From positions 937,501-1,001,500 of the forward strand of contig NZ_CP030280.1 in NCBI RefSeq assembly GCF_003287895.1: DNA of 64,000 bases, given 5' to 3'. Position numbers and translations under genes: made by a program. Source of the DNA: Blautia argi (GTDB lineage Bacteria > Bacillota > Clostridia > Lachnospirales > Lachnospiraceae). Below the pieces are notes generated by a model that was given only the letters and a program-made list of their open reading frames with translations, was not told where the DNA came from and made no database searches. How positions within the stretch are numbered: the stretch's first letter is position 1; every line of letters begins with the position of its first letter. Positions 21,187-64,000 of the stretch are shown here, piece after piece.

Positions 21187-22658
21187 ATGAAGACACATTC
21201 TATTAAATTCAATTTTATTATGAATGCTTTGCTGACTTTATCGTCTGTTATTTTTCCTATTATTACATTCCCATACATATCGAGAGTGTTAGGAGTAAGA
21301 GGAAGCGGAGATGTAGCGGCAGCATTATCAACAGTTTCCTACTTTACGATGTTTGCTTCATTGGGAGTGCCTACATATGGTATTCGAGCTTGTGCACGGG
21401 TAAGAGACGATAAAGCAAAGTTATCGCAGACCGTCCAGGAACTTTTGATCATTAATGCAGTAACAACAGCAGCTATATATCTGATTTTTTTTGGCTGTCT
21501 TGCAGTTGTACCAAAATTCAATGGGCAGAAAGAGCTCTTAATGGTAGTCAGTATATCTATTATATTAAACACCATGGGAATGCAATGGTTGTATAATGCA
21601 CTGGAACAGTATAGTTATATTACAGTCTGTTCGTTGAGTTTTAAGGTTTTGGGAATCATATTGATGTTCGCCATGATTCATTCACCTGATGATTATTTAA
21701 AATATGGGGCAATTAGTGCAATTTCCAGCTACGGATCTGGCATTATGAATTTTATTAATATGAGAAAATATGTGTCATTAAAAAAGACAGAATTTTACGA
21801 TTTTAAAAGACACATGAAACCGCTGTTTACATTTTTCTTTATGTCTGCAGCAACCAGTATTTATTTGAATCTGGACATGGTTATGCTCTGGCTGATGAAG
21901 ACAAATTGGGATACTGGTATCTATAATGCAGCAATTAAAATTAAGACGGTGTTGGTAAACTTAGTTACCTCTCTGGGCACAGTTTTGCTTCCAAGAATGT
22001 CTTTTTACATAGAAAAAGGAGAGCAGGAAGCCTTTAAGATACTGTGACAAAAGCTTTTCGGTTTGTTACAGTAGCAGCAACAGGAATGATGATTTTCTTT
22101 ATGATTTTTGCAAAAGAATCCATTCTGATTTTATCAGGAGATGCATTTTTACCGGCAATTTTGCCTATGCAGCTGCTAATGATAACACTTTTGCTTATTG
22201 GACTGTCTAATATTACAGGGATGCAGATTCTTACCCCTATGGGGCAGGAGGATAAAGTATTGAAGTCAATCGTAGCCGGAGCAGTTGTGGATTTTACATT
22301 GAATCTGGTATTGATTCCCAGATATGCGTCTACAGGAGCTGCATTTGCAACAGTTATGGCAGAAACTATAGTTGTGATTGTACAATTCATATATTTAAGA
22401 GATATATTGAAAGGATTATTGAAGAATATCCAGTATTTCAAAATTATAGCAGCACTAATTTTAGGAAGCGCGGGGGCTATTTTGTTAAAAGTAAATATGA
22501 ATTTTGATGGAAGCTCCACCTTTATGCGTTTAGTAATTATGGCAGCGGAGGCAATCGTATTTTTTGCTCTTTATGGAGGAAGCCTTCTTTTGATGAAAGA
22601 GCCTTTGATTATGGAAATGAAGGAAATGGGGATTAATATGCTGAAAAGAAAAAAATAG
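21187..22658 (+). pseudogene. repeat-unit flippase (Wzx/MATE-like), split by a one-base frameshift
   Basis: Two adjoining frames make one polysaccharide flippase. Bases 21187-22047 give 286 residues (start MKTHSIKFNFIMNALLTLSS, FPYISRVLGVRGSGDVA), ending EAFKIL-stop. Bases from 22044 give 204 residues (VTKAFRFVTV...GDAFLPAILPMQLLM...). The sum, about 490 aa with roughly 12-14 helices, is normal for Wzx. Restoring one A at TTTAAGATACTG (about 22034-22045) reads EAFKDTVTKAFRF, as expected in homologues. No slippery heptamer is present. The second frame can start at a GTG overlapping the TGA (GTGA), so coupled translation of two halves cannot be excluded. A second, intact Wzx lies at 39621. Confidence 0.82.
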
Positions 22659-25288: not shown

Positions 25289-26502
25289 ATGAAAATATTA
25301 GTTGTACATAATCTTCACAGAACCGGTTCTGCCAGTGGAGATGATCAGGTATTTAAAAATGAAACAAAGCTATTGCAGCAAAAGGGGATAGAGGTTATCC
25401 CCTATACTGTTATTAATGATAAATTTGATCAGGCTGGGGCAGTCGGGAAAATATTAATGACACTTGGCATGATGTGGTCATTTGAAAATTATAAAAAAAT
25501 AGAAGAACTTATAAAACGTGAGAAGCCGGATATTATGCATGTGCATACTTTTTTTCCACTGCTTTCTCCGTCTATTTTGTATGCAGCAAAGAAATATCAG
25601 GTAAAAGTAGTGGCGACGCTGCATGACACCAGATTTATCTGTCCTTGCGCAACGTCTTTAAGGAATGGAAAAATATGTAATCTTTGCGGCGATGGAAAAT
25701 ATTTCAGAATGGTCAAGTATGGCTGTTTTAAAAATTCCAGGTTTATGTCTTTAGTAGTGGCAACTATTTTTAAATATCATAGGATCAAAAAATCCTTTTA
25801 TAAACAAATTGATAAATATATTTGTCTGAATGACGAGCAGATTGAATTGCTGGAGAATATTGGTTTTGATAAAGAGAAAATTGTCAAAAAATACAACTTT
25901 GTATCCGACGCAGGACTCTCTGTAGCAGAAATACCAAAAAACTATACGCTTCCTGAACATTTTGCCGTATTTTACGGGAGAATAGGGGAAGAAAAAGGCA
26001 TTCGGATACTTCAAAAGGTTTGGGATACAATCGAAGATATTCCCCCTCGTAGTGATGGGCGGGGGACCATTAGAAGAAGAGTTTAGAGTGTGGGCAGACA
26101 AGAAAGCAAATGTATTTTATCTTGGGTATGTACCTCATGAGGTGTGTATGGCTATAGCAGAGAGAGCAGATTTTGCTCTGATGCCCTCTATTTGGTATGA
26201 AGGCTGCTCCATGGTGGCAATAGAAACAGAAAGTCTGGGAATTCCTTTAATTACAACAGACATTGGTTTTTTCAAAGAGGCGATTCAAAACGGAAAGAAT
26301 GGAATAAAAATCCCTTTGGGTGATATTCAGGGCTTCAGAGAAGCTATAATGAATTTTTGGGAAAATCCTGAAAAAGTGCAGGAAATGGGACAAAATGCCA
26401 GGACTGATTATGAAAAAAAAATATGTACCCGAAGATAATGTGAAACAGTTATTAGAAATATATGTCGGGGTACTGGGGGAAGACGGAAAATGGAGCAAAT
26501 AG
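25289..26502 (+). pseudogene. glycosyltransferase, GT4-like, with two homopolymer frameshifts
   Basis: The N-terminal part (25289 to about 26045) begins MKILVVHNLHRTGSASGDD and has KPDIMHVHTFFPLLSPSI, KVVATLHDTRFICP and two Cys pairs. Reading breaks at a run of five C (26042-26046): with four C it continues DIPLVVMGGGPLEEEF, the GT4 donor loop. The middle part (to about 26412) has FYLGYVPHEVC, MPSIWYEGCSMVAIE. A second break falls at nine A (26413-26421): with eight it reads YEKKYVPEDNVKQLL and ends at TAG 26500-26502, overlapping the next gene by 13 bases. The repaired product is 403 aa, a normal GT4 length. As written, it would be truncated before its donor site and probably inactive. Confidence 0.85.
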
Positions 26503-48215: not shown

Positions 48216-48364
48216 TAGGCAGTGTAGTTTTACATAAAAACACAATAAAAATCTGATTATCCGATAAAACAGTAAGCACTTAATTTTGGGGTGAATTTTA
48301 GTTTATCTTTTTATCTTTCATAATATAAACCTATTTGGCATTTACGTTGAAGCAGAGAGGAGTA

Positions 48365-49930
48365 ATGATAAAAGAAAAAGTTAGACACATAAAACTTTTA
48401 ATTATAAGTATATTAGTATTGCTTTTAGGAAAGAATTTGATATCTTTTGACTCAATCCCTATATATGCATCATCAACACAAATTCAATATCAAACCCATA
48501 TTCAAGACTATGGCTGGCAGGACTGGAAATCAGAGGGAGGAATGAGCGGTACACAGGGAGAATGTAAACGCCTGGAAGGAATTCGGATAAAACTGTCTAA
48601 TCAGCCTTATTCAGGCGGTATTGAGTATCGTACCCATGTGCAGGATTATGGCTGGCAGAACTTTGTGGGGAACGGTCAGATGTCAGGAACAAGCGGAGAG
48701 TGCAAACGGCTTGAGGCAATTCAGATACGTCTGACCGGAGAAGTGGCAGAACACTATGATATATATTACAGGGTTCATGCAGAAGAATTTGGGTGGTTAG
48801 CGTGGACAAGAAATGGAAAAAGTGCAGGGACAGAGGGGTTTAGCTATCGCCTGGAAGGAATAGAAATACGTCTGATAGACAAGAATAATCCTGCTCCGGG
48901 AAATACAAGAGGGGCTTATAAAGTACCCATGATTCAGTATACAACCCATGTACAGGATTACGGGTGGCAGGCAGCATTAGTAGATGGACAGACAAGTGGA
49001 ACAGAAGGAGAATCAAAACGTTTAGAGGGTGTGAAAATAAAACTGGTGAATCAGCCATATACAGGTGGTATCGAATATGCAACCCATGTACAGGATTACG
49101 GGTGGCAGAATTTTGTGGGGAACGACAGTTTGGCGGGAACTTCCGGAGAGTGTAAAAGATTGGAAGCTATTAAAATACGTCTGACGGGAAGTATGGCTCA
49201 ATATTATGATGTGTATTACAGGGTTCATGTAGAAAATCTGGGCTGGCAGGACTGGGTAAAGAATGGAGAAGCAGCAGGAACAGAAGGTCTTTCTTATCGC
49301 CTGGAGGGGCTGGAAATTAAATTAGTGGATAAGGGAAATGACTTGTGGATAAAAGAATTGGACGCAGCGAAAAGTAGTTCTCAGTTGGTTGTAGCTTCTG
49401 TCTATGACGGAACCTATGCATCTGTAACTATGTACAGTAAAGATGGTGATAGATGGAAGGAAGATTTTGCGACAATCGGAAGGACTGGTTCAAAAGGAAT
49501 ACAAAAAGAAAAAGAAGGAGATAAAAAGAGTCCTTCTGGTATTTACGGATTACATACTCCATTTGGGATTAGAACAAATCCGGGCTGTCCTATGGCATAT
49601 CTTCAGGTCACAGAAAACCATTACTGGGGTGGAAGCCCGGATAAATATTATAATACAATGGTAGATATTTCCGAATCTCCTGATTATATTGCAGGAACAG
49701 GAGAACATATTATAGATTACGGAAGTGTATATAATTATTGTGTTGCTATAGACTATAATCCAGAAGGTGTTGTGGGGAAGGGCAGCGCTATTTTTCTGCA
49801 TTGTCAGGGAAAGGGTACAACAGCAGGCTGCATATCCATTCCAGAAAGCAATATGGTTTATTTGCTTCAGCATTTGAGAAGCGATGCAAAAATTATTATT
49901 GATTATGAAACCAATATTGGGTTATATTGA
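48365..49930 (+). CDS. secreted L,D-transpeptidase with six ChW repeats
   Basis: 521 aa from ATG 48365 (GAGAGGAG immediately upstream). Basic N-terminus and hydrophobic core (LLIISILVLLLG) form a signal peptide, likely cut near YASS. Residues about 38-325 are six clostridial hydrophobic (ChW) repeats in two sets of three, each with a G-W core such as QDYGWQNF and a R-L-E-[AG]-[IV] end. Residues about 340-521 are a YkuD-type L,D-transpeptidase domain: SPSGIYGLH, and the catalytic HCQGKGTTAGCISIP with His479 and Cys489. It probably makes 3-3 cross-links or anchors proteins in peptidoglycan, with the repeats holding it to the envelope. The lysozyme downstream uses the same repeat. Confidence 0.92.
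   Translation: MIKEKVRHIKLLIISILVLLLGKNLISFDSIPIYASSTQIQYQTHIQDYGWQDWKSEGGMSGTQGECKRLEGIRIKLSNQPYSGGIEYRTHVQDYGWQNFVGNGQMSGTSGECKRLEAIQIRLTGEVAEHYDIYYRVHAEEFGWLAWTRNGKSAGTEGFSYRLEGIEIRLIDKNNPAPGNTRGAYKVPMIQYTTHVQDYGWQAALVDGQTSGTEGESKRLEGVKIKLVNQPYTGGIEYATHVQDYGWQNFVGNDSLAGTSGECKRLEAIKIRLTGSMAQYYDVYYRVHVENLGWQDWVKNGEAAGTEGLSYRLEGLEIKLVDKGNDLWIKELDAAKSSSQLVVASVYDGTYASVTMYSKDGDRWKEDFATIGRTGSKGIQKEKEGDKKSPSGIYGLHTPFGIRTNPGCPMAYLQVTENHYWGGSPDKYYNTMVDISESPDYIAGTGEHIIDYGSVYNYCVAIDYNPEGVVGKGSAIFLHCQGKGTTAGCISIPESNMVYLLQHLRSDAKIIIDYETNIGLY
48480..49330 (+). repeat. ChW repeat array (2 x 3) in the L,D-transpeptidase gene
   Basis: Six units of about 34 conserved residues. Units 1 and 4 (THIQDYGWQ/THVQDYGWQ...RLEG), 2 and 5 (QNFVGN...RLEAI), and 3 and 6 (YRVH...GW...SYRLEG) match best, so the evolutionary unit is a triplet. 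Confidence 0.9.
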
Positions 49931-49944
49931 GGTTTCTTCAAGAG

Positions 49945-49973
49945 TTGAAAAGCCGAAAAGCTTATGATAAAAT
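49945..49973 (+). promoter_or_regulatory. promoter of the lysozyme gene
   Basis: TTGAAA (49945-49950), 17 bases, TAAAAT (49968-49973), 57 bases before ATG 50031 and just after the preceding stop. Confidence 0.55.
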
Positions 49974-50030
49974 AAGAACGGAAATTTGAAGGAAGTTTAT
50001 GCGGACGTTAAGAAGAAAAGGATAGTACAC

Positions 50031-52259
50031 ATGAAGAGAAATGTAAAAAAGAAGTTATTGTCCCTGCTTGTTTGTGCAACAGTTTTGAATGTAAGTTTAG
50101 ACTGGAGTTCTATGGAAATTTATGCGGCACAAAAGGAAAGCATACAGTCAGAGGAAAATGATGTCAGAGAAAACAGTTGGCGTTATTCAGAGGGAGAACC
50201 TGTATATAGGAATGAGATCAGCAGAAATGCCCGTACTGCAATTTCTAATGCCTGGAGTAAGGTGGATGGTTACTATGTAAACAATAAGGGAGAGCAAATT
50301 AAGGGCGCTGTTAAAAAAGGAATTGATGTCAGTGAGCATAATGGGAAGATTGATTGGGCTAAGGTAAAGGCAGACGGAATTGATTTTGCTGTCATCAGAT
50401 GCGGATACGGAACCGATCTTAAAAATCAGGACGATAAATACTGGGAATATAATATATCAGAATGTGAGCGTCTGGGTATTCCTTATGGTGTTTATCTTTA
50501 TTCATATGCCAATACGAAGGAAAAAGCCAAAAGCGAGGCTGAACATGTTCTCAGACTTTTAAAGGGACATTCACCAGCTTATCCAGTATATTATGATTTA
50601 GAAGATGAGAAAGTAAAGCCTTTGTCAAGCCGTGAAAAGGGAGAACTTGCTTCTGTTTTTTGCGATAGAGTATCTAAAGCCGGATATAAAACAGGTATTT
50701 ATGCAAATTTGGACTGGTGGGAAAATCAACTTACAGATGCAGCTTTTAATAATACTTCGTGGTCCAAGTGGATTGCACAGTATAATTCTTCCTGCCAGTA
50801 TAAAGGACAATATGATATCTGGCAATGTACTTCTACTGGAAGTGTAAAGGGAATCAATGGAAATGTGGATGTGAATTTTCTCATGAATACAGTTGATATG
50901 AATCAGGTAGTATATCAGGGAAATGTAGAAGGACAGGGTTGGCAGTCAGGCGTGAGAAATGGAGCTATCAGTGGGACAGAGGGGCAATCCAAACAACTGG
51001 AAGGCGTAAAAATCAGACTGGAAAATTATGGAATACCAACACCGGGAATTGAATATAGAACACATATCCAGGATAAAGGCTGGGAGAATACCTGGAAAAA
51101 GGACGGACAGGTCAGCGGTGTGGAAGGAAAAAGAATGGAAGCGCTGCAGATACGTTTGACTGGACAGTATGCCAGAAATTATGATTTGTATTATCGTGTT
51201 CATGTACAGGATTTAGGCTGGCTTGACTGGGCAAAAAATGGTGATACAGCAGGAACGGTTGGATATGGGAAATATGTACAGGCATATCAGATTGTATTGG
51301 TGGAGAAGGGAGGTACAGCGCCAGGAAATACGGCAAATCCATGGAGACAGCCGTATTTGCAATACAGCACCCATGTACAGGATTATGGCTGGCAGTCTTC
51401 CAGTTTTGATGGGGATTTATCTGGTACATCAGGAGAATCCAAGCGTCTGGAGGGGATTAAGATCCAGTTGGTAAATCAGAAATATTCAGGCGGAATTACA
51501 TACAGTACCCATGTACAGGATTATGGCTGGCAAAACTTTGTTTCTAATGGGGCGATGTCAGGGACTTCGGGAGAATTAAAAAGACTGGAGGCTATACAGA
51601 TTAAGCTGACAGGAGAAATGGCTAAGCATTATGATATTTATTACAGAGTACACGCAGAAACCTTTGGCTGGCTTGACTGGGCGAAGAATGGTGAAAATGC
51701 AGGTACAGCCGGATATAGCTATCGCCTGGAGGGAATTCAGATTCAGTTAGTAGAAAAGGGCAAGTCAGCTCCCGGATCTACGAATGTACCTTTTCGGCAG
51801 GCAGTAGTACAATATAGTACCCATGTACAGGATTATGGCTGGCAGAGTTTTGTGGCAGATGGTCAGATGGCGGGAACTTCCGGTGAGTCAAAACGCTTGG
51901 AAGGAATTCGTATACAGCTGGCAAACCAAAAGTATACGGGAGATATAGAGTATAATACTCATGTACAAGATTATGGTTGGCTGAAAAATGTAAAAAATGG
52001 ACAGGTTTCCGGAACTTCTGGCGAGTTGAAACGTTTGGAAGCCATACAGATTAAGCTAACAGGAGAAATGGCAAAGCATTATGATATTTATTATAGAGTG
52101 CATGCAGAAACCTTTGGCTGGCTTGGCTGGGCAAAAAATGGGGAACCGGCAGGAACCAGTGGATATTCTTATCGATTAGAAGGAATTGAGATACAATTGG
52201 TAAATAAAGGAGCTGCCGCACCTGGAAGTACAGAGGACAGTTATATTCCTTATTATTAG
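50031..52259 (+). CDS. secreted GH25 lysozyme with nine ChW repeats
   Basis: 742 aa from ATG 50031 (AAAAGGA 8 bases upstream); an upstream in-frame start at 49986 would spoil the signal peptide, which runs to about residue 32. Residues about 96-285 are a GH25 muramidase: KKGIDVSEHNGKIDW with Asp99, FAVIRCGYG, YGVYLYSYA, YPVYYDLED with Asp189 and Glu191, and a final DIWQCTSTG...VDVNFLM. Nine ChW repeats (residues about 293-730) follow in three triplets. It should cut the MurNAc-GlcNAc bond of peptidoglycan. No phage genes lie nearby, so it is more likely a housekeeping or secreted wall enzyme than a phage lysin. It shares its repeat design with the L,D-transpeptidase upstream. Confidence 0.93.
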   Translation: MKRNVKKKLLSLLVCATVLNVSLDWSSMEIYAAQKESIQSEENDVRENSWRYSEGEPVYRNEISRNARTAISNAWSKVDGYYVNNKGEQIKGAVKKGIDVSEHNGKIDWAKVKADGIDFAVIRCGYGTDLKNQDDKYWEYNISECERLGIPYGVYLYSYANTKEKAKSEAEHVLRLLKGHSPAYPVYYDLEDEKVKPLSSREKGELASVFCDRVSKAGYKTGIYANLDWWENQLTDAAFNNTSWSKWIAQYNSSCQYKGQYDIWQCTSTGSVKGINGNVDVNFLMNTVDMNQVVYQGNVEGQGWQSGVRNGAISGTEGQSKQLEGVKIRLENYGIPTPGIEYRTHIQDKGWENTWKKDGQVSGVEGKRMEALQIRLTGQYARNYDLYYRVHVQDLGWLDWAKNGDTAGTVGYGKYVQAYQIVLVEKGGTAPGNTANPWRQPYLQYSTHVQDYGWQSSSFDGDLSGTSGESKRLEGIKIQLVNQKYSGGITYSTHVQDYGWQNFVSNGAMSGTSGELKRLEAIQIKLTGEMAKHYDIYYRVHAETFGWLDWAKNGENAGTAGYSYRLEGIQIQLVEKGKSAPGSTNVPFRQAVVQYSTHVQDYGWQSFVADGQMAGTSGESKRLEGIRIQLANQKYTGDIEYNTHVQDYGWLKNVKNGQVSGTSGELKRLEAIQIKLTGEMAKHYDIYYRVHAETFGWLGWAKNGEPAGTSGYSYRLEGIEIQLVNKGAAAPGSTEDSYIPYY
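50908..52206 (+). repeat. ChW repeat array (3 x 3) in the lysozyme gene
   Basis: Nine units. The first triplet is the most diverged (for example QGQGW-type and QDKGWENT cores). Triplets 2 and 3 are near copies, including long shared segments such as SGTSGELKRLEAIQIKL and YRVHAETFGWL, which suggests recent internal duplication. Confidence 0.9.
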
Positions 52260-59951: not shown

Positions 59952-61178
59952 ATGGCTACGATTAAACCGTTTTGTGCTGTAAGACCAGAAAGCAGTCTGG
60001 TTCATAAAATTGCAGCGCTTCCCTATGATGTGTATAACAGAATGGAAGCAAGAAAAGAAGTGAAAAAAAATCCACAATCCTTTCTAAAAGTGGATCGTGC
60101 GGAGACATTGCTGGCAGAGGATATTGACATTTATAGTCATGAGGTTTATGCGAAGGCAGCATGTACGTTAGAGGAAATGATACATAACCACGAATTTATA
60201 AAGGATACACAGCCTGGCTATTATATTTATGAACTGACAATGGAAGGGCGTTCTCAGACAGGCATTGTCGGCTGTGCTGCTATTGATGATTATTTAAACA
60301 AAATTATTATGAAACATGAGAATACGCGTTCTGATAAAGAACTGGACAGGATAAATCACATTGATGTGTGTAATGCACAAACGGGACCTATTTTTCTGAC
60401 GTACAGAGCAAATGCGTCTATCAATGATATTGTGGAAAAAAAGAAAACAGAAGCGCCAATTTATGATTTTACAGCAGAAGATGGAGTGGGACATCGCGTA
60501 TGGAAAATTGAAAATAAAAAGGATATGGAAGGTATAAAAGAAACCTTTGCAGGCATTAATCAGATTTATATTGCAGATGGTCATCACAGAGCTGCTTCAG
60601 CTGTCAAAGTGGGACAGATGAGAAGAGAAACCTGTCCGGATTATACAGGTGACGAAGACTTTAATTATTTTCTGTCAGTATTGTTTCCAAGTGAAGAACT
60701 ATATGTCATGGATTATAACCGTGTGGTTAAGGATTTGAATGGATATACAGCAGAGGAATTTAAGAAAAAAATCAGAGAAGTATTTGAGCTGGAGTTATAT
60801 GGCAAAGAACCGTACAAACCGGAAGAAAAGGGTACATTTGGTATGTTTTTAGAGGGAGTCTGGTATAAATTGAAAATAAGAGAAACAGATACTTCAGATC
60901 CGGTGAGCAGATTAGATGTTTCTATTCTTCAGAATAAGGTGTTGGAACCGATTTTGGGAATAACAGACCCCAGGACAGATCAGAGAATTCAGTTTGTGGG
61001 AGGAATCAGAGGATTAAAAGTATTAGAAAAAGATGCTGTAAATGGCGTGGCTTTTTCTATGTATCCGACAGCAATCGAAGAGCTGTTTGCAGTTTCTGAT
61101 GCAGGTATGCTTATGCCGCCAAAATCCACATGGTTTGAACCCAAGTTAAGAAGCGGATTATTTATCCATCAAATTTAG
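59952..61178 (+). CDS. DUF1015 family protein
   Basis: 408 aa cytoplasmic protein. The family's marks are present: IKPFCAVRPE...KIAALPYDVYN at the start, NPQSFLKVDRAE, YIYELTMEGRSQTGIVGCAAIDDYL, KHENTRSDKE (about 121-130), and ADGHHRAASA with Asp209-Gly-His-His-Arg213. That motif recalls the ParB/Srx-like fold of free-serine kinases (SbnI, archaeal SerK), and DUF1015 genes often neighbour serC/serA in clostridia. From this I infer, without proof, that it phosphorylates serine. It lies 11 bases before a nucleotidyltransferase-PLP enzyme gene, which could use phosphoserine. Family call is secure; function is not. Confidence 0.88.
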   Translation: MATIKPFCAVRPESSLVHKIAALPYDVYNRMEARKEVKKNPQSFLKVDRAETLLAEDIDIYSHEVYAKAACTLEEMIHNHEFIKDTQPGYYIYELTMEGRSQTGIVGCAAIDDYLNKIIMKHENTRSDKELDRINHIDVCNAQTGPIFLTYRANASINDIVEKKKTEAPIYDFTAEDGVGHRVWKIENKKDMEGIKETFAGINQIYIADGHHRAASAVKVGQMRRETCPDYTGDEDFNYFLSVLFPSEELYVMDYNRVVKDLNGYTAEEFKKKIREVFELELYGKEPYKPEEKGTFGMFLEGVWYKLKIRETDTSDPVSRLDVSILQNKVLEPILGITDPRTDQRIQFVGGIRGLKVLEKDAVNGVAFSMYPTAIEELFAVSDAGMLMPPKSTWFEPKLRSGLFIHQI

Positions 61179-61189
61179 AGGAGGAAAAA

Positions 61190-63005
61190 ATGCAGGCGAT
61201 TATTTTAGCAGCAGGAATGGGAAAAAGATTAAAGGAATTAACAAGCAATGCAACAAAGTGTATGGTTGAAGTGAATGGTGTAACTATGATTGAGAGAACC
61301 CTTTCTCAATTAGATGCATTAAATCTGGAAAGAATTGTAGTAGTGGTAGGCTATGAAGGTCAGAAGTTAATGGAGTATATTGGAACATTAGATATACAAA
61401 CACCGGTGGAATATGTAAATAATGATGTTTATTATAAGACAAATAATATTTATTCTTTGTATCTGGCAAAAGATTATCTTTTAGAAGATGATACTTTGCT
61501 TTTGGAATCGGATATTATCTTTGAGAGCGCTGTGCTGCAGAGATTATTGGACAACCCTTATCCCAGCCTTGCTTTAGTAGCCAAATATGAAAGCTGGATG
61601 GATGGAACGGTTGTGACATTAGATGAAGAAGATAATATTGTTGGCTTTTTAGGAAAAAAGGATTTCAAATTCAGTGATATTTCAAATTACTATAAGACAG
61701 TGAACATTTATAAGTTTGGTAAGGAGTTTTCAAACAGCCATTATGTTCCCTTTTTGGAGGCATATAGCAAAGCACTCGGAAATAATGAATACTATGAGCA
61801 GGTATTAAAGGTCATCACATTGCTGGATAAACCGGAAATTAAAGCAGAACGGTTGGAAAATGAAGCCTGGTATGAGGTTGATGATGTGCAGGATTTGGAT
61901 ATTGCAGAATCTATTTTTGCTGAAAAAGGAGAAAAGCTGGAACGGTTTAACAAAAGATTCGGTGGGTATTGGAGATTATCCCCGTCTGATAGATTTCTGT
62001 TATCTGGTAAATCCATTTTATCCAAATCAGAAATTAATAGATGAAATGCAGGCGAATTTCGGCAGGCTATTATGTGATTATCCGTCGGGTATGAATGTGA
62101 ATAGCCTTCTGGGAGCCAAGTATTATGGACTCCGCAGAGAACAGGTTTGTGTCGGAAACGGCGCTGCAGAATTGATTAAAGCTTTAATGGAGAGGTTAGA
62201 GGGAAAAGTAGGAATGATTTATCCTACTTTTGAGGAATATCCCCATCGTAGAAAAGAAGAGGATATTGTTCCGTATCAGATACAGGACAGAGATTTCAGA
62301 TATACAGCAGATGAATTGATGAATTATTATGAAGATAAAGAAATTCAAATTCTGGTTTTGATTAATCCCGATAACCCTTCCGGAAACTATATTGAAAAGA
62401 GAGAGGTGCTTCGTATTGCTCAATGGGCAGAGCGCAGAAATATCAGATTTGTTGTAGATGAATCTTTTGTGGATTTTGCAGATACAGAAGAAAATCCTAC
62501 TTTACTGGAAGAAGATATTATCAAAAAATATAGGAATTTAATCGTGATAAAGAGTATTTCCAAATCCTTTGGCGTACCAGGTTTAAGGTTAGGGCTTCTG
62601 GTGTCTGACGATTTAGATTTGATTGCAAAAATGAAGAAAGATGTTTCTATCTGGAATATTAATTCTTTTGCAGAATTTTATATGCAGATTTTTGAAAAAT
62701 ATAAAGCCAATTATGACGATGCTATGAAGAAGTTCCGCGTTGTCCGTAAAGAATATGTGGAAATGTTGAATCAGATTTCTGACTTAAGAGTGATTCCTTC
62801 ACAGGCCAATTACCTGATGTGTGAACTTACCGGTGCTATGACCAGTAAAGAACTCGCGGAAGAATTATTGGATAAATACAGCATTTTGATTAAAGATTTA
62901 TCAAACAAAAATGGGTTTGATGGAAAATCTTATATACGTGTTGCAGTAAAACGTCCGGAAGAGAATCAGAAACTGGTTGATGCAATAAAAGAAGTATTAA
63001 AATAA
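61190..63005 (+). pseudogene. nucleotidyltransferase fused to a class I/II PLP enzyme, interrupted by one frameshift
   Basis: First frame (61190-62044) encodes a LicC-like nucleotidyltransferase: QAIILAAGMGKRLKELTSNATKCMVEVNG, LLLESDIIFE, YYKTVNIYKF, EVDDVQDLDIAE. It leaves homology after NKRFGGYWR. Removing one T at 61976-61977 joins WR to YPRLIDFCYLVNPFYPN in the second frame, which runs to 63005 as a fold-type I PLP enzyme: VCVGNGAAELIKAL, LINPDNPSGNY, VDESFVDFA, and the Schiff-base Lys in IKSISKSFGVPGLRLG. The repaired protein is 604 aa. The PLP part resembles CobD/HisC-like decarboxylases and aminotransferases. Together they may make a CDP-amino-alcohol. As written, the second half could only be translated by re-initiation. 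Confidence 0.82.
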
Positions 63006-63020
63006 AACAAAAGAAAAAGT

Positions 63021-63527
63021 ATGAAAAAATATATCATTTATCTCCCTGTTTTATTAGTGCCTCTGCTTAACCTGATGCTGTATGAATGGAAGTTTTCCGT
63101 AAAAGAATTTTTTATGATGGCAGGTATTGCTTTTTCGGAAGAAGTTTTTTTCAGAGGATTTCTGCTGTCAAAACTGACAGGGAATTTTAGATATCGAGTA
63201 TTCAGAGGAATCCTGATTACAAGTTTTGTATTTTCAGGTATGCATTTTATAAATCTGTTTTCCGGAGCCTCACCCGGCTATGTGCTTGCACAGTGCATAA
63301 GTGCAGGGTGCATAGGGTTTTGCTTTGCCGTTATTGTTTACAGGGAAAGGAGTATTTTCTTTTGTGTGCTGTTTCATTTGTTGATTAATCTTACATCAAC
63401 AGAAGCAAATCTGGAATTATCAGAAATTCAATGGCTGATTTATGGCGCTGCGGCTGTTTTTTATGCAGGGTATGGGATATGGATGTATCGAAGGAAAAAG
63501 AAAGTGAACAAGCAAGGAGAAAGATAA
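63021..63527 (+). CDS. CPBP family intramembrane protease-like protein
   Basis: 168 aa, about five membrane helices. The signature EEVFFRGFLL (Glu40, Glu41, Arg45) and two later helices with a conserved His (FVFSGMHFINLF and CVLFHLLINLTS) define the CPBP/CAAX protease-like (Abi) family. In Gram-positive bacteria some members mature peptides or act as immunity proteins; others have no known substrate. No bacteriocin gene is near. One base separates it from the next gene, so it belongs to that operon. Length is at the short end of the family. Confidence 0.85.
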   Translation: MKKYIIYLPVLLVPLLNLMLYEWKFSVKEFFMMAGIAFSEEVFFRGFLLSKLTGNFRYRVFRGILITSFVFSGMHFINLFSGASPGYVLAQCISAGCIGFCFAVIVYRERSIFFCVLFHLLINLTSTEANLELSEIQWLIYGAAAVFYAGYGIWMYRRKKKVNKQGER

Positions 63528-63528
63528 G

Positions 63529-64000
63529 ATGAAACTCTATATTGATCCAGGTACAGGAAGTATGCTGTTTGCAATTCTTATAGGAATTCTGGGTGCAGCA
63601 AATTATTTATTAAAAGATTGGATTGTAAAAATAAGGTTTCTTTTAAGCGGAGGAAGACAAAAGGCAGACGTGAATGAAAAAAAGATACCAATTGTAATTT
63701 TTTCAGATGATAAGAGATATTGGACAGTATTTGAACCTCTTTGCCGGGAATTTGATAGGAGGGGAGTAGATATTGTTTATATGACAGCTTCTCCGGACGA
63801 CCCGGCTTTAAAGAATCCGTATGAACATATAAAAGGAGAGTTTATAGGAGAAAATAATAAGGCATTCGCAAAGCTGAATTTTTTAAATGCAACCTTGGTG
63901 CTTTCCACAACACCGGGCTTAGATGTGTATCAGTGGAAACGCTCAAAAAAAGTACAGTATTATGTACATATGCTTCATGCGGCAAATGAAATTGCGGGAT
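63529..64000 (+). CDS. CDP-glycerol glycerophosphotransferase family protein, N-terminal part (runs off window)
   Basis: ATG 63529, 1 base after the previous stop, with AAGGAGA upstream. The 157 visible residues start KLYIDPGTGSMLFAILIGILG, one hydrophobic segment that could anchor the protein, then a GT-B-like N-terminal domain: KIPIVIFSDDKRYWTVFEPLCREFDRRG, VDIVYMTASPDDPAL, LVLSTTPGLDVYQWKRSKKVQYYVHMLHAANE. That pattern is usual in TagB/TagF-related CDP-glycerol:poly(glycerophosphate) transferases, and the DPGTGS start is common in clostridial versions. It would transfer a phospho-alcohol from a CDP carrier, matching the cytidylyltransferase-like gene upstream. Confidence 0.82.
   Translation, partial: MKLYIDPGTGSMLFAILIGILGAANYLLKDWIVKIRFLLSGGRQKADVNEKKIPIVIFSDDKRYWTVFEPLCREFDRRGVDIVYMTASPDDPALKNPYEHIKGEFIGENNKAFAKLNFLNATLVLSTTPGLDVYQWKRSKKVQYYVHMLHAANEIAG

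Follow-up and report, generated by a model that had tools for sequence, protein, structure and literature searches.

A candidate serine-to-CDP-ethanolamine gene cluster in Blautia argi and its variable genomic neighbourhood

Known EptA-type bacterial phosphoethanolamine transferases draw on phosphatidylethanolamine, and the Lic pathway (LicA-LicC-LicD) serves phosphocholine. An enzyme of the Campylobacter capsule is reportedly an L-serine phosphate decarboxylase, and the protein of PDB entry 6oux is presumably SMUL_1544, the L-serine-O-phosphate decarboxylase of norcobamide synthesis. Entries 6pd1 and 6pd2 we take to be Treponema denticola PntC, a 2-aminoethylphosphonate (AEP) cytidylyltransferase-aminotransferase fusion, while SerK and SbnI are free serine kinases. 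Here we describe a gene cluster at the end of a 64,000-nucleotide (nt) stretch of Blautia argi DNA (the window, C1:937501-1001500 of a one-contig genome of 3.30 Mb). It encodes, all on the plus strand, a DUF1015 protein, a LicC-like cytidylyltransferase and a CobD-like pyridoxal phosphate (PLP) enzyme that form a single protein of about 600 amino acids (aa) in relatives, a CPBP-family membrane protein, and a CDP-glycerol glycerophosphotransferase-family (PF04464) protein. Taken together, the domains and predicted folds of its proteins, their key residues, and the order and linkage of the genes suggest that on balance this cluster, DUF1015 protein included, makes and attaches a phosphoethanolamine head group derived from serine.

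In silico, the fusion probably makes CDP-ethanolamine from phosphoserine. Its PLP half lies in an open reading frame (ORF) of 381 aa at 61860-63005 on the plus strand, the first part of which is non-homologous, and it matches PF00155 (E 8.3e-34). The best PDB match was 6oux (E 2.9e-47), with 165 bits against 93 for Salmonella CobD, and the best matches by sequence and by structure alike were decarboxylases. The motifs NPDNPSG, DESF, KSISKSF and PGLRLG are present, and the half has a SMUL_1544-like fold with the features expected for PLP binding. The preliminary description had proposed that it decarboxylates phosphoserine to phosphoethanolamine; its nearest solved relative, by sequence and by modelled structure, argues for this, and no better structural match to a different substrate class was seen.

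The cytidylyltransferase half is encoded in the upstream frame by an ORF of 284 aa (61190-62044, plus strand) that matches PF12804 (E 1.1e-13) and PF00483; its best PDB sequence match was 6pd1 (E 9e-16), followed by LicC (1jyk). Excerpts of one report (PMC6697681) state that Glu104 and Glu196 of PntC lie near the primary amine of AEP, that LicC has Asp at both positions, and that LicC favours phosphocholine over phosphoethanolamine 2700-fold. Of 79 fusion loci collected, L041, L042 and L043 contained no usable fusion ORF, and the 76 used were reduced to 68 at 90% identity. In the alignment, Glu occupies the PntC Glu104 position in all 68 fusions; the counterpart of Glu196 can be placed only to within one position. 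Six LicC-/PntC-like neighbours of the YidC-sulfatase genes considered below carry Glu (one), Ser (three), Cys (one) or His (one) at the Glu104 position. This discriminating residue favours the earlier suggestion that the LicC-like half makes CDP-ethanolamine. A phosphonate route was rejected for the window: no phosphoenolpyruvate (PEP) mutase (PF13714) match was obtained in the genome, with a control positive in 11 of 14, and AEP is therefore unlikely here.

The DUF1015 protein (408 aa; 59952-61178, plus strand; PF06245, E 3.7e-116) precedes the fusion. Its predicted structure matched SerK and SbnI far above all else and has their ParB/Srx-type fold, so that the model lends support to the view that it may be a serine kinase of this fold, as had been proposed. 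The motif DGHHR (residues 209-213) is conserved without exception in an alignment of 14 DUF1015 sequences that takes in the divergent ones of Erysipelothrix, and it occurs in the solved protein 1vk1. His122-Glu123 is likewise invariant, and is a candidate for the equivalent of SerK Glu30. Named close relatives of the protein are mostly from Lachnospiraceae. Excerpts of one paper (PMC12704722) name 'DU1015' among ParB-fold fusions and make no serine-kinase claim for it; in the open-licence literature two papers mention DUF1015 and none was found to pair it with a serine kinase, and among the 20 of 606 papers listed on free serine kinase, phosphoserine and pyrophosphate we recognised nothing relevant. 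The same literature yielded nothing recognised as relevant on serine phosphate decarboxylase with CDP-ethanolamine or capsule, on norcobamide, or on LicD with CDP-ethanolamine.

These assignments can be joined into one scheme. The DUF1015 protein, as a relative of SerK and SbnI, would interconvert L-serine and O-phospho-L-serine, with SerA-SerC as an alternative source of phosphoserine. The PLP half would decarboxylate O-phosphoserine to phosphoethanolamine, and the LicC/PntC-like half would convert this with cytidine triphosphate to CDP-ethanolamine. A CDP-alcohol-type transferase, namely the PF04464 protein here and LicD or a YidC-PF04464 fusion in other genomes, would then transfer phosphoethanolamine to a membrane-linked glycan, and a YidC-sulfatase protein would work outside, in transfer or export. 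The preliminary description had drawn the route from serine to CDP-ethanolamine over four adjacent genes. Each of its enzyme guesses gained support, and in silico the assignments stand. The idea that the four genes form an obligatory pathway unit does not, because DUF1015 rarely adjoins the fusion and was found with serC-serA in most of 19 selected loci, and because genes found at other fusion loci could change the product. The positions of the genes agree with that description, but the CPBP gene separates the fusion from the PF04464 gene.

The fusion is patchy but broad in its distribution: at E 1e-60 it was found in 11 of 293 genomes of the class and 30 of 250 of the family. When named genomes were scanned with peptides of one intact fusion (P0014), a query biased towards close relatives, 40 loci were obtained, belonging to Clostridia, Bacteroidales, Akkermansia, Erysipelothrix, Methanobrevibacter and other groups. 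Neighbours in the 68 loci were labelled with custom profiles, that for PF04464 being built from the window's protein alone. Representatives were confirmed with Pfam (five LicD, three Octopine_DH and two OCD_Mu_crystall proteins), as were five of the six PF04464-like loci (L120, L131, L133, L135 and L150), the sixth being the window. Because the loci vary in length, in some cases stop at the end of a contig, and are not independent in phylogeny, the p-values are descriptive. Within five genes of the fusion we observed LicD in 29 of 68 loci and a PF04464-like gene in six, never both together, making 35 in total. LicD filled 26 of 253 slots at a distance of one to two genes against 5 of 431 at three to seven (p 6e-8), and PF04464-like genes filled six against none (p 0.002). 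This linkage supports the proposed transferase step. Three loci encode YidC (PF02096) ahead of PF04464 in one protein, adjacent to the fusion (L131:7910-9820, L133:8785-10704 and L135:4090-5991). At L138:7820-9541, next to the fusion, LicD is joined to a methyltransferase domain, which would be consistent with an N-methylated head group.

The PF04464 gene begins at 63529 on the plus strand and runs beyond the window end at 64000, its product having a DPGTGS N-terminus. The part inside the window gave no Pfam match on its own; the full protein of 417 aa (L002:6030-7283) matches PF04464 with E 2.3e-13 and 50.3 bits, above the cut-off of 22.1, and its nearest solved chain is TagF-like Cps3D (E 0.0054). 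Just past the window end, L002:7285-10047 encodes a 920-aa protein with YidC (PF02096) and sulfatase-superfamily (PF00884; 32.7 bits, cut-off 25) domains. Neither LtaS nor EptA was among the sequence matches listed for it.

We examined 17 loci with this YidC-sulfatase: the window, L120, L187 (from one genome with L150) and L173-L186. Fourteen of them include a PF04464 gene, which was not seen in L180 (which meets a contig end), L183 and L184; those of L173 and L185 were missed by the greedy ORF script and recovered by tblastn. A recognisable head-group maker lies nearby in 11 of the 17. It is the fusion in the window, L120 and L187; a cytidylyltransferase together with a partner or domain of the choline kinase family in L173, L174, L182 and L185 (by Pfam, the L185 kinase by tblastn); a choline-kinase-family gene in L181; and a cytidylyltransferase with no partner seen in L176, which is truncated where the retrieved sequence stops, and L179. 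At L177:5685-10006 a cytidylyltransferase-PEP mutase fusion, a thiamine pyrophosphate enzyme and an iron alcohol dehydrogenase stand beside the YidC-sulfatase and PF04464 genes, and this is probably a phosphonate version of the window's cluster type. No head-group maker was seen in L175, L178, L180, L183, L184 and L186. The most parsimonious interpretation is that at these loci the fusion takes the position of enzymes that activate choline or a phosphonate, and its product should therefore be a cytidine monophosphate-linked small amino alcohol phosphate. Tentatively, and with more doubt than confidence, we would extend this to a plug-in form of surface tailoring, joined to a role for DUF1015 as a family of reversible serine kinases that completes serine synthesis in many Clostridia. 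Interchangeable makers (DUF1015 with the decarboxylase-cytidylyltransferase fusion, choline kinase with LicC, PEP mutase with PntC) would feed a common output of PF04464, YidC and sulfatase-superfamily phosphotransferase.

Several findings weigh against a serine-derived head group made and attached by this cluster, and they are taken here together with the explanations that compete with it. Of 293 class genomes, 234 have DUF1015 and 11 have the fusion; being near-universal, DUF1015 is uninformative as a marker. Nineteen DUF1015 loci were hand-picked from these 234, and they come from 11 of the 12 genomes of the same family besides the window's own and from eight others. In 12 of them (L094-L103, L105 and L108) serC and serA stand beside DUF1015; L107, L109 and L111 show just a shorter SerA-like neighbour, L104, L106 and L112 neither, and in L110 the DUF1015 gene was not called by the ORF script. 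The window genome has its sole DUF1015 copy at this cluster and none at its serC-serA locus, and DUF1015 lies within two genes of the fusion in 4 of 68 loci only: the window, Faecalimonas L020 and Erysipelothrix L031 and L035. Compared with solved chains, the DUF1015 profile reached 1vk1 as its sole SerK relative, at a weak E of 0.17. The gene counts would suit a DUF1015 protein of serine metabolism, for example in the last synthesis step from phosphoserine to serine, that stands here by chance; the fusion would then use phosphoserine from SerC and still make CDP-ethanolamine. We regard this as possible but unlikely, given that only 11 nt separate DUF1015 from the fusion and that the two are neighbours in two lineages, one of the window and Faecalimonas, the other of Erysipelothrix, where DUF1015 is very divergent (19-22% identity) and keeps DGHHR. 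At E 1e-60 the YidC-sulfatase was detected in 14 of the 250 genomes of the family, and because just two of these (the window's and G329) have the fusion it was rejected as a fusion-specific marker. A further difficulty is the frame change between the two halves, which breaks the fusion in this assembly. The gene may be dead in this strain and the pathway lost; we find this doubtful. An assembly error is plausible, since a near-identical database copy (P0001) reads through the break region uninterrupted and other genes of the genome also look split, namely a flippase at 21187-22658, read as two ORFs, and a PLP gene at C1:2463959-2464985. A glycosyltransferase at 25289-26086 seems from its ORF to end early and, with the flippase, suggests that this region has more frame breaks or assembly errors. 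The structure model of the fusion is middling (predicted local distance difference test 78.7, predicted template modelling score 0.64), and its matches cover the PLP half alone.

The nature and fate of the product can also be questioned. On TIGR01140 (CobD) the PLP half scores 188.2 bits, below the cut-off of 290.55 and equal to the genome's HisC. If the half were an aminotransferase, the cluster might yield CDP-serinol or another CDP-linked amino alcohol; this is improbable, as both sequence and structure match decarboxylases best, and as the half scores less on the hisC model (159.5 bits) than on CobD, the reverse of what the genome's HisC shows. A role as cobalamin CobD or as HisC is unlikely, because between its CobQ and CbiB the genome carries another CobD-like gene (279.0 bits on TIGR01140, also under the cut-off), and by HisB a HisC above cut-off. 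Elsewhere the fusion stands with an opine-dehydrogenase-like (13 of 68) or an ornithine-cyclodeaminase-like gene (14 of 68), no locus having both (P 0.035), and 18 of these 27 loci also have LicD; the product there may therefore differ. Both families perform reductive chemistry on amines, so that ethanolamine may be N-carboxyethylated in such genomes. Proteus O-antigens contain N-(2-hydroxyethyl)alanine phosphate, and nothing relevant was recognised on such O-antigens in the open-licence literature. Another CDP-amino alcohol, either 1-aminopropan-2-ol from phosphothreonine or, at such loci, N-(1-carboxyethyl) ethanolamine formed by reductive condensation with pyruvate before transfer by LicD, is an unlikely alternative. 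The preference for 6oux over Salmonella CobD speaks against it, and the window's gene row shows no gene like either family and no methyltransferase-LicD gene; an Octopine_DH search of the genome gave no match, but its control matched no genome either, so absence is not shown. That CDP-ethanolamine enters phosphatidylethanolamine synthesis through a CDP-alcohol phosphatidyltransferase would suit the two PF01066 proteins of the genome (listed as 99.96% complete) and the lack of a phosphatidylserine decarboxylase match in it (control positive in 6 of 14). We consider this very improbable beside the glycan-type neighbours in the window and the association of the fusion with LicD and PF04464 elsewhere, and attachment to a glycan via PF04464 is the likelier fate. 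The attachment step has its own weak points: the PF04464 match of the window's protein spans only profile positions 148-364 of 367, and 33 of 68 loci have neither LicD nor a PF04464-like gene within five genes, some of them ending at contig ends.

The CPBP-family protein (168 aa; 63021-63527, plus strand; PF02517, E 2.2e-15) is a neighbour of the fusion in the window alone among the 68 loci. It follows the fusion by 15 nt, and gaps of 1 nt separate it from the PF04464 gene and the latter from the YidC-sulfatase gene. Upstream of the cluster lie genes for YfhO, a family 2 glycosyltransferase, GtrA and an acyltransferase. Two proteins encoded upstream, at 48335-52259, contain many HVQDYGWQ-type repeats, which we take to be ChW repeats. 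The only LicD of the genome is far from the cluster.

If the cluster works as proposed, a lipid-independent route from serine to phosphoethanolamine would be a new way to a common surface decoration. DUF1015, a widespread family of unknown function, would gain a testable role in phosphoserine chemistry, and surface chemistry could be predicted from gene order through the transferase, YidC and sulfatase set and its varied head-group makers.

Compared with described systems, the cluster resembles the Lic pathway in its predicted CDP-activated head group and in the 29 loci where LicD accompanies the fusion, and differs in that the head group is predicted to come from serine rather than choline and that the window's transferase is of the PF04464 family. 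PntC has the same order of a cytidylyltransferase followed by a PLP enzyme and the same Glu at the amine-facing position, but the PLP half of the fusion is CobD-like, of class I/II, and not an AEP transaminase, and the genome gave no PEP mutase match. SMUL_1544 and CobD share fold and PLP motifs with this half and include its best sequence match; unlike them, it is fused to a cytidylyltransferase and sits among glycan genes. The Campylobacter capsule decarboxylase would share the step from phosphoserine to phosphoethanolamine predicted here, and is not known to be joined to a cytidylyltransferase. DUF1015 shares DGHHR with 1vk1, and with SerK of Thermococcus kodakarensis and SbnI of Staphylococcus it shares a predicted ParB/Srx-type fold and a link to phosphoserine metabolism; it has no significant sequence match to these two kinases and, at 408 aa, is larger than their approximately 240 aa.

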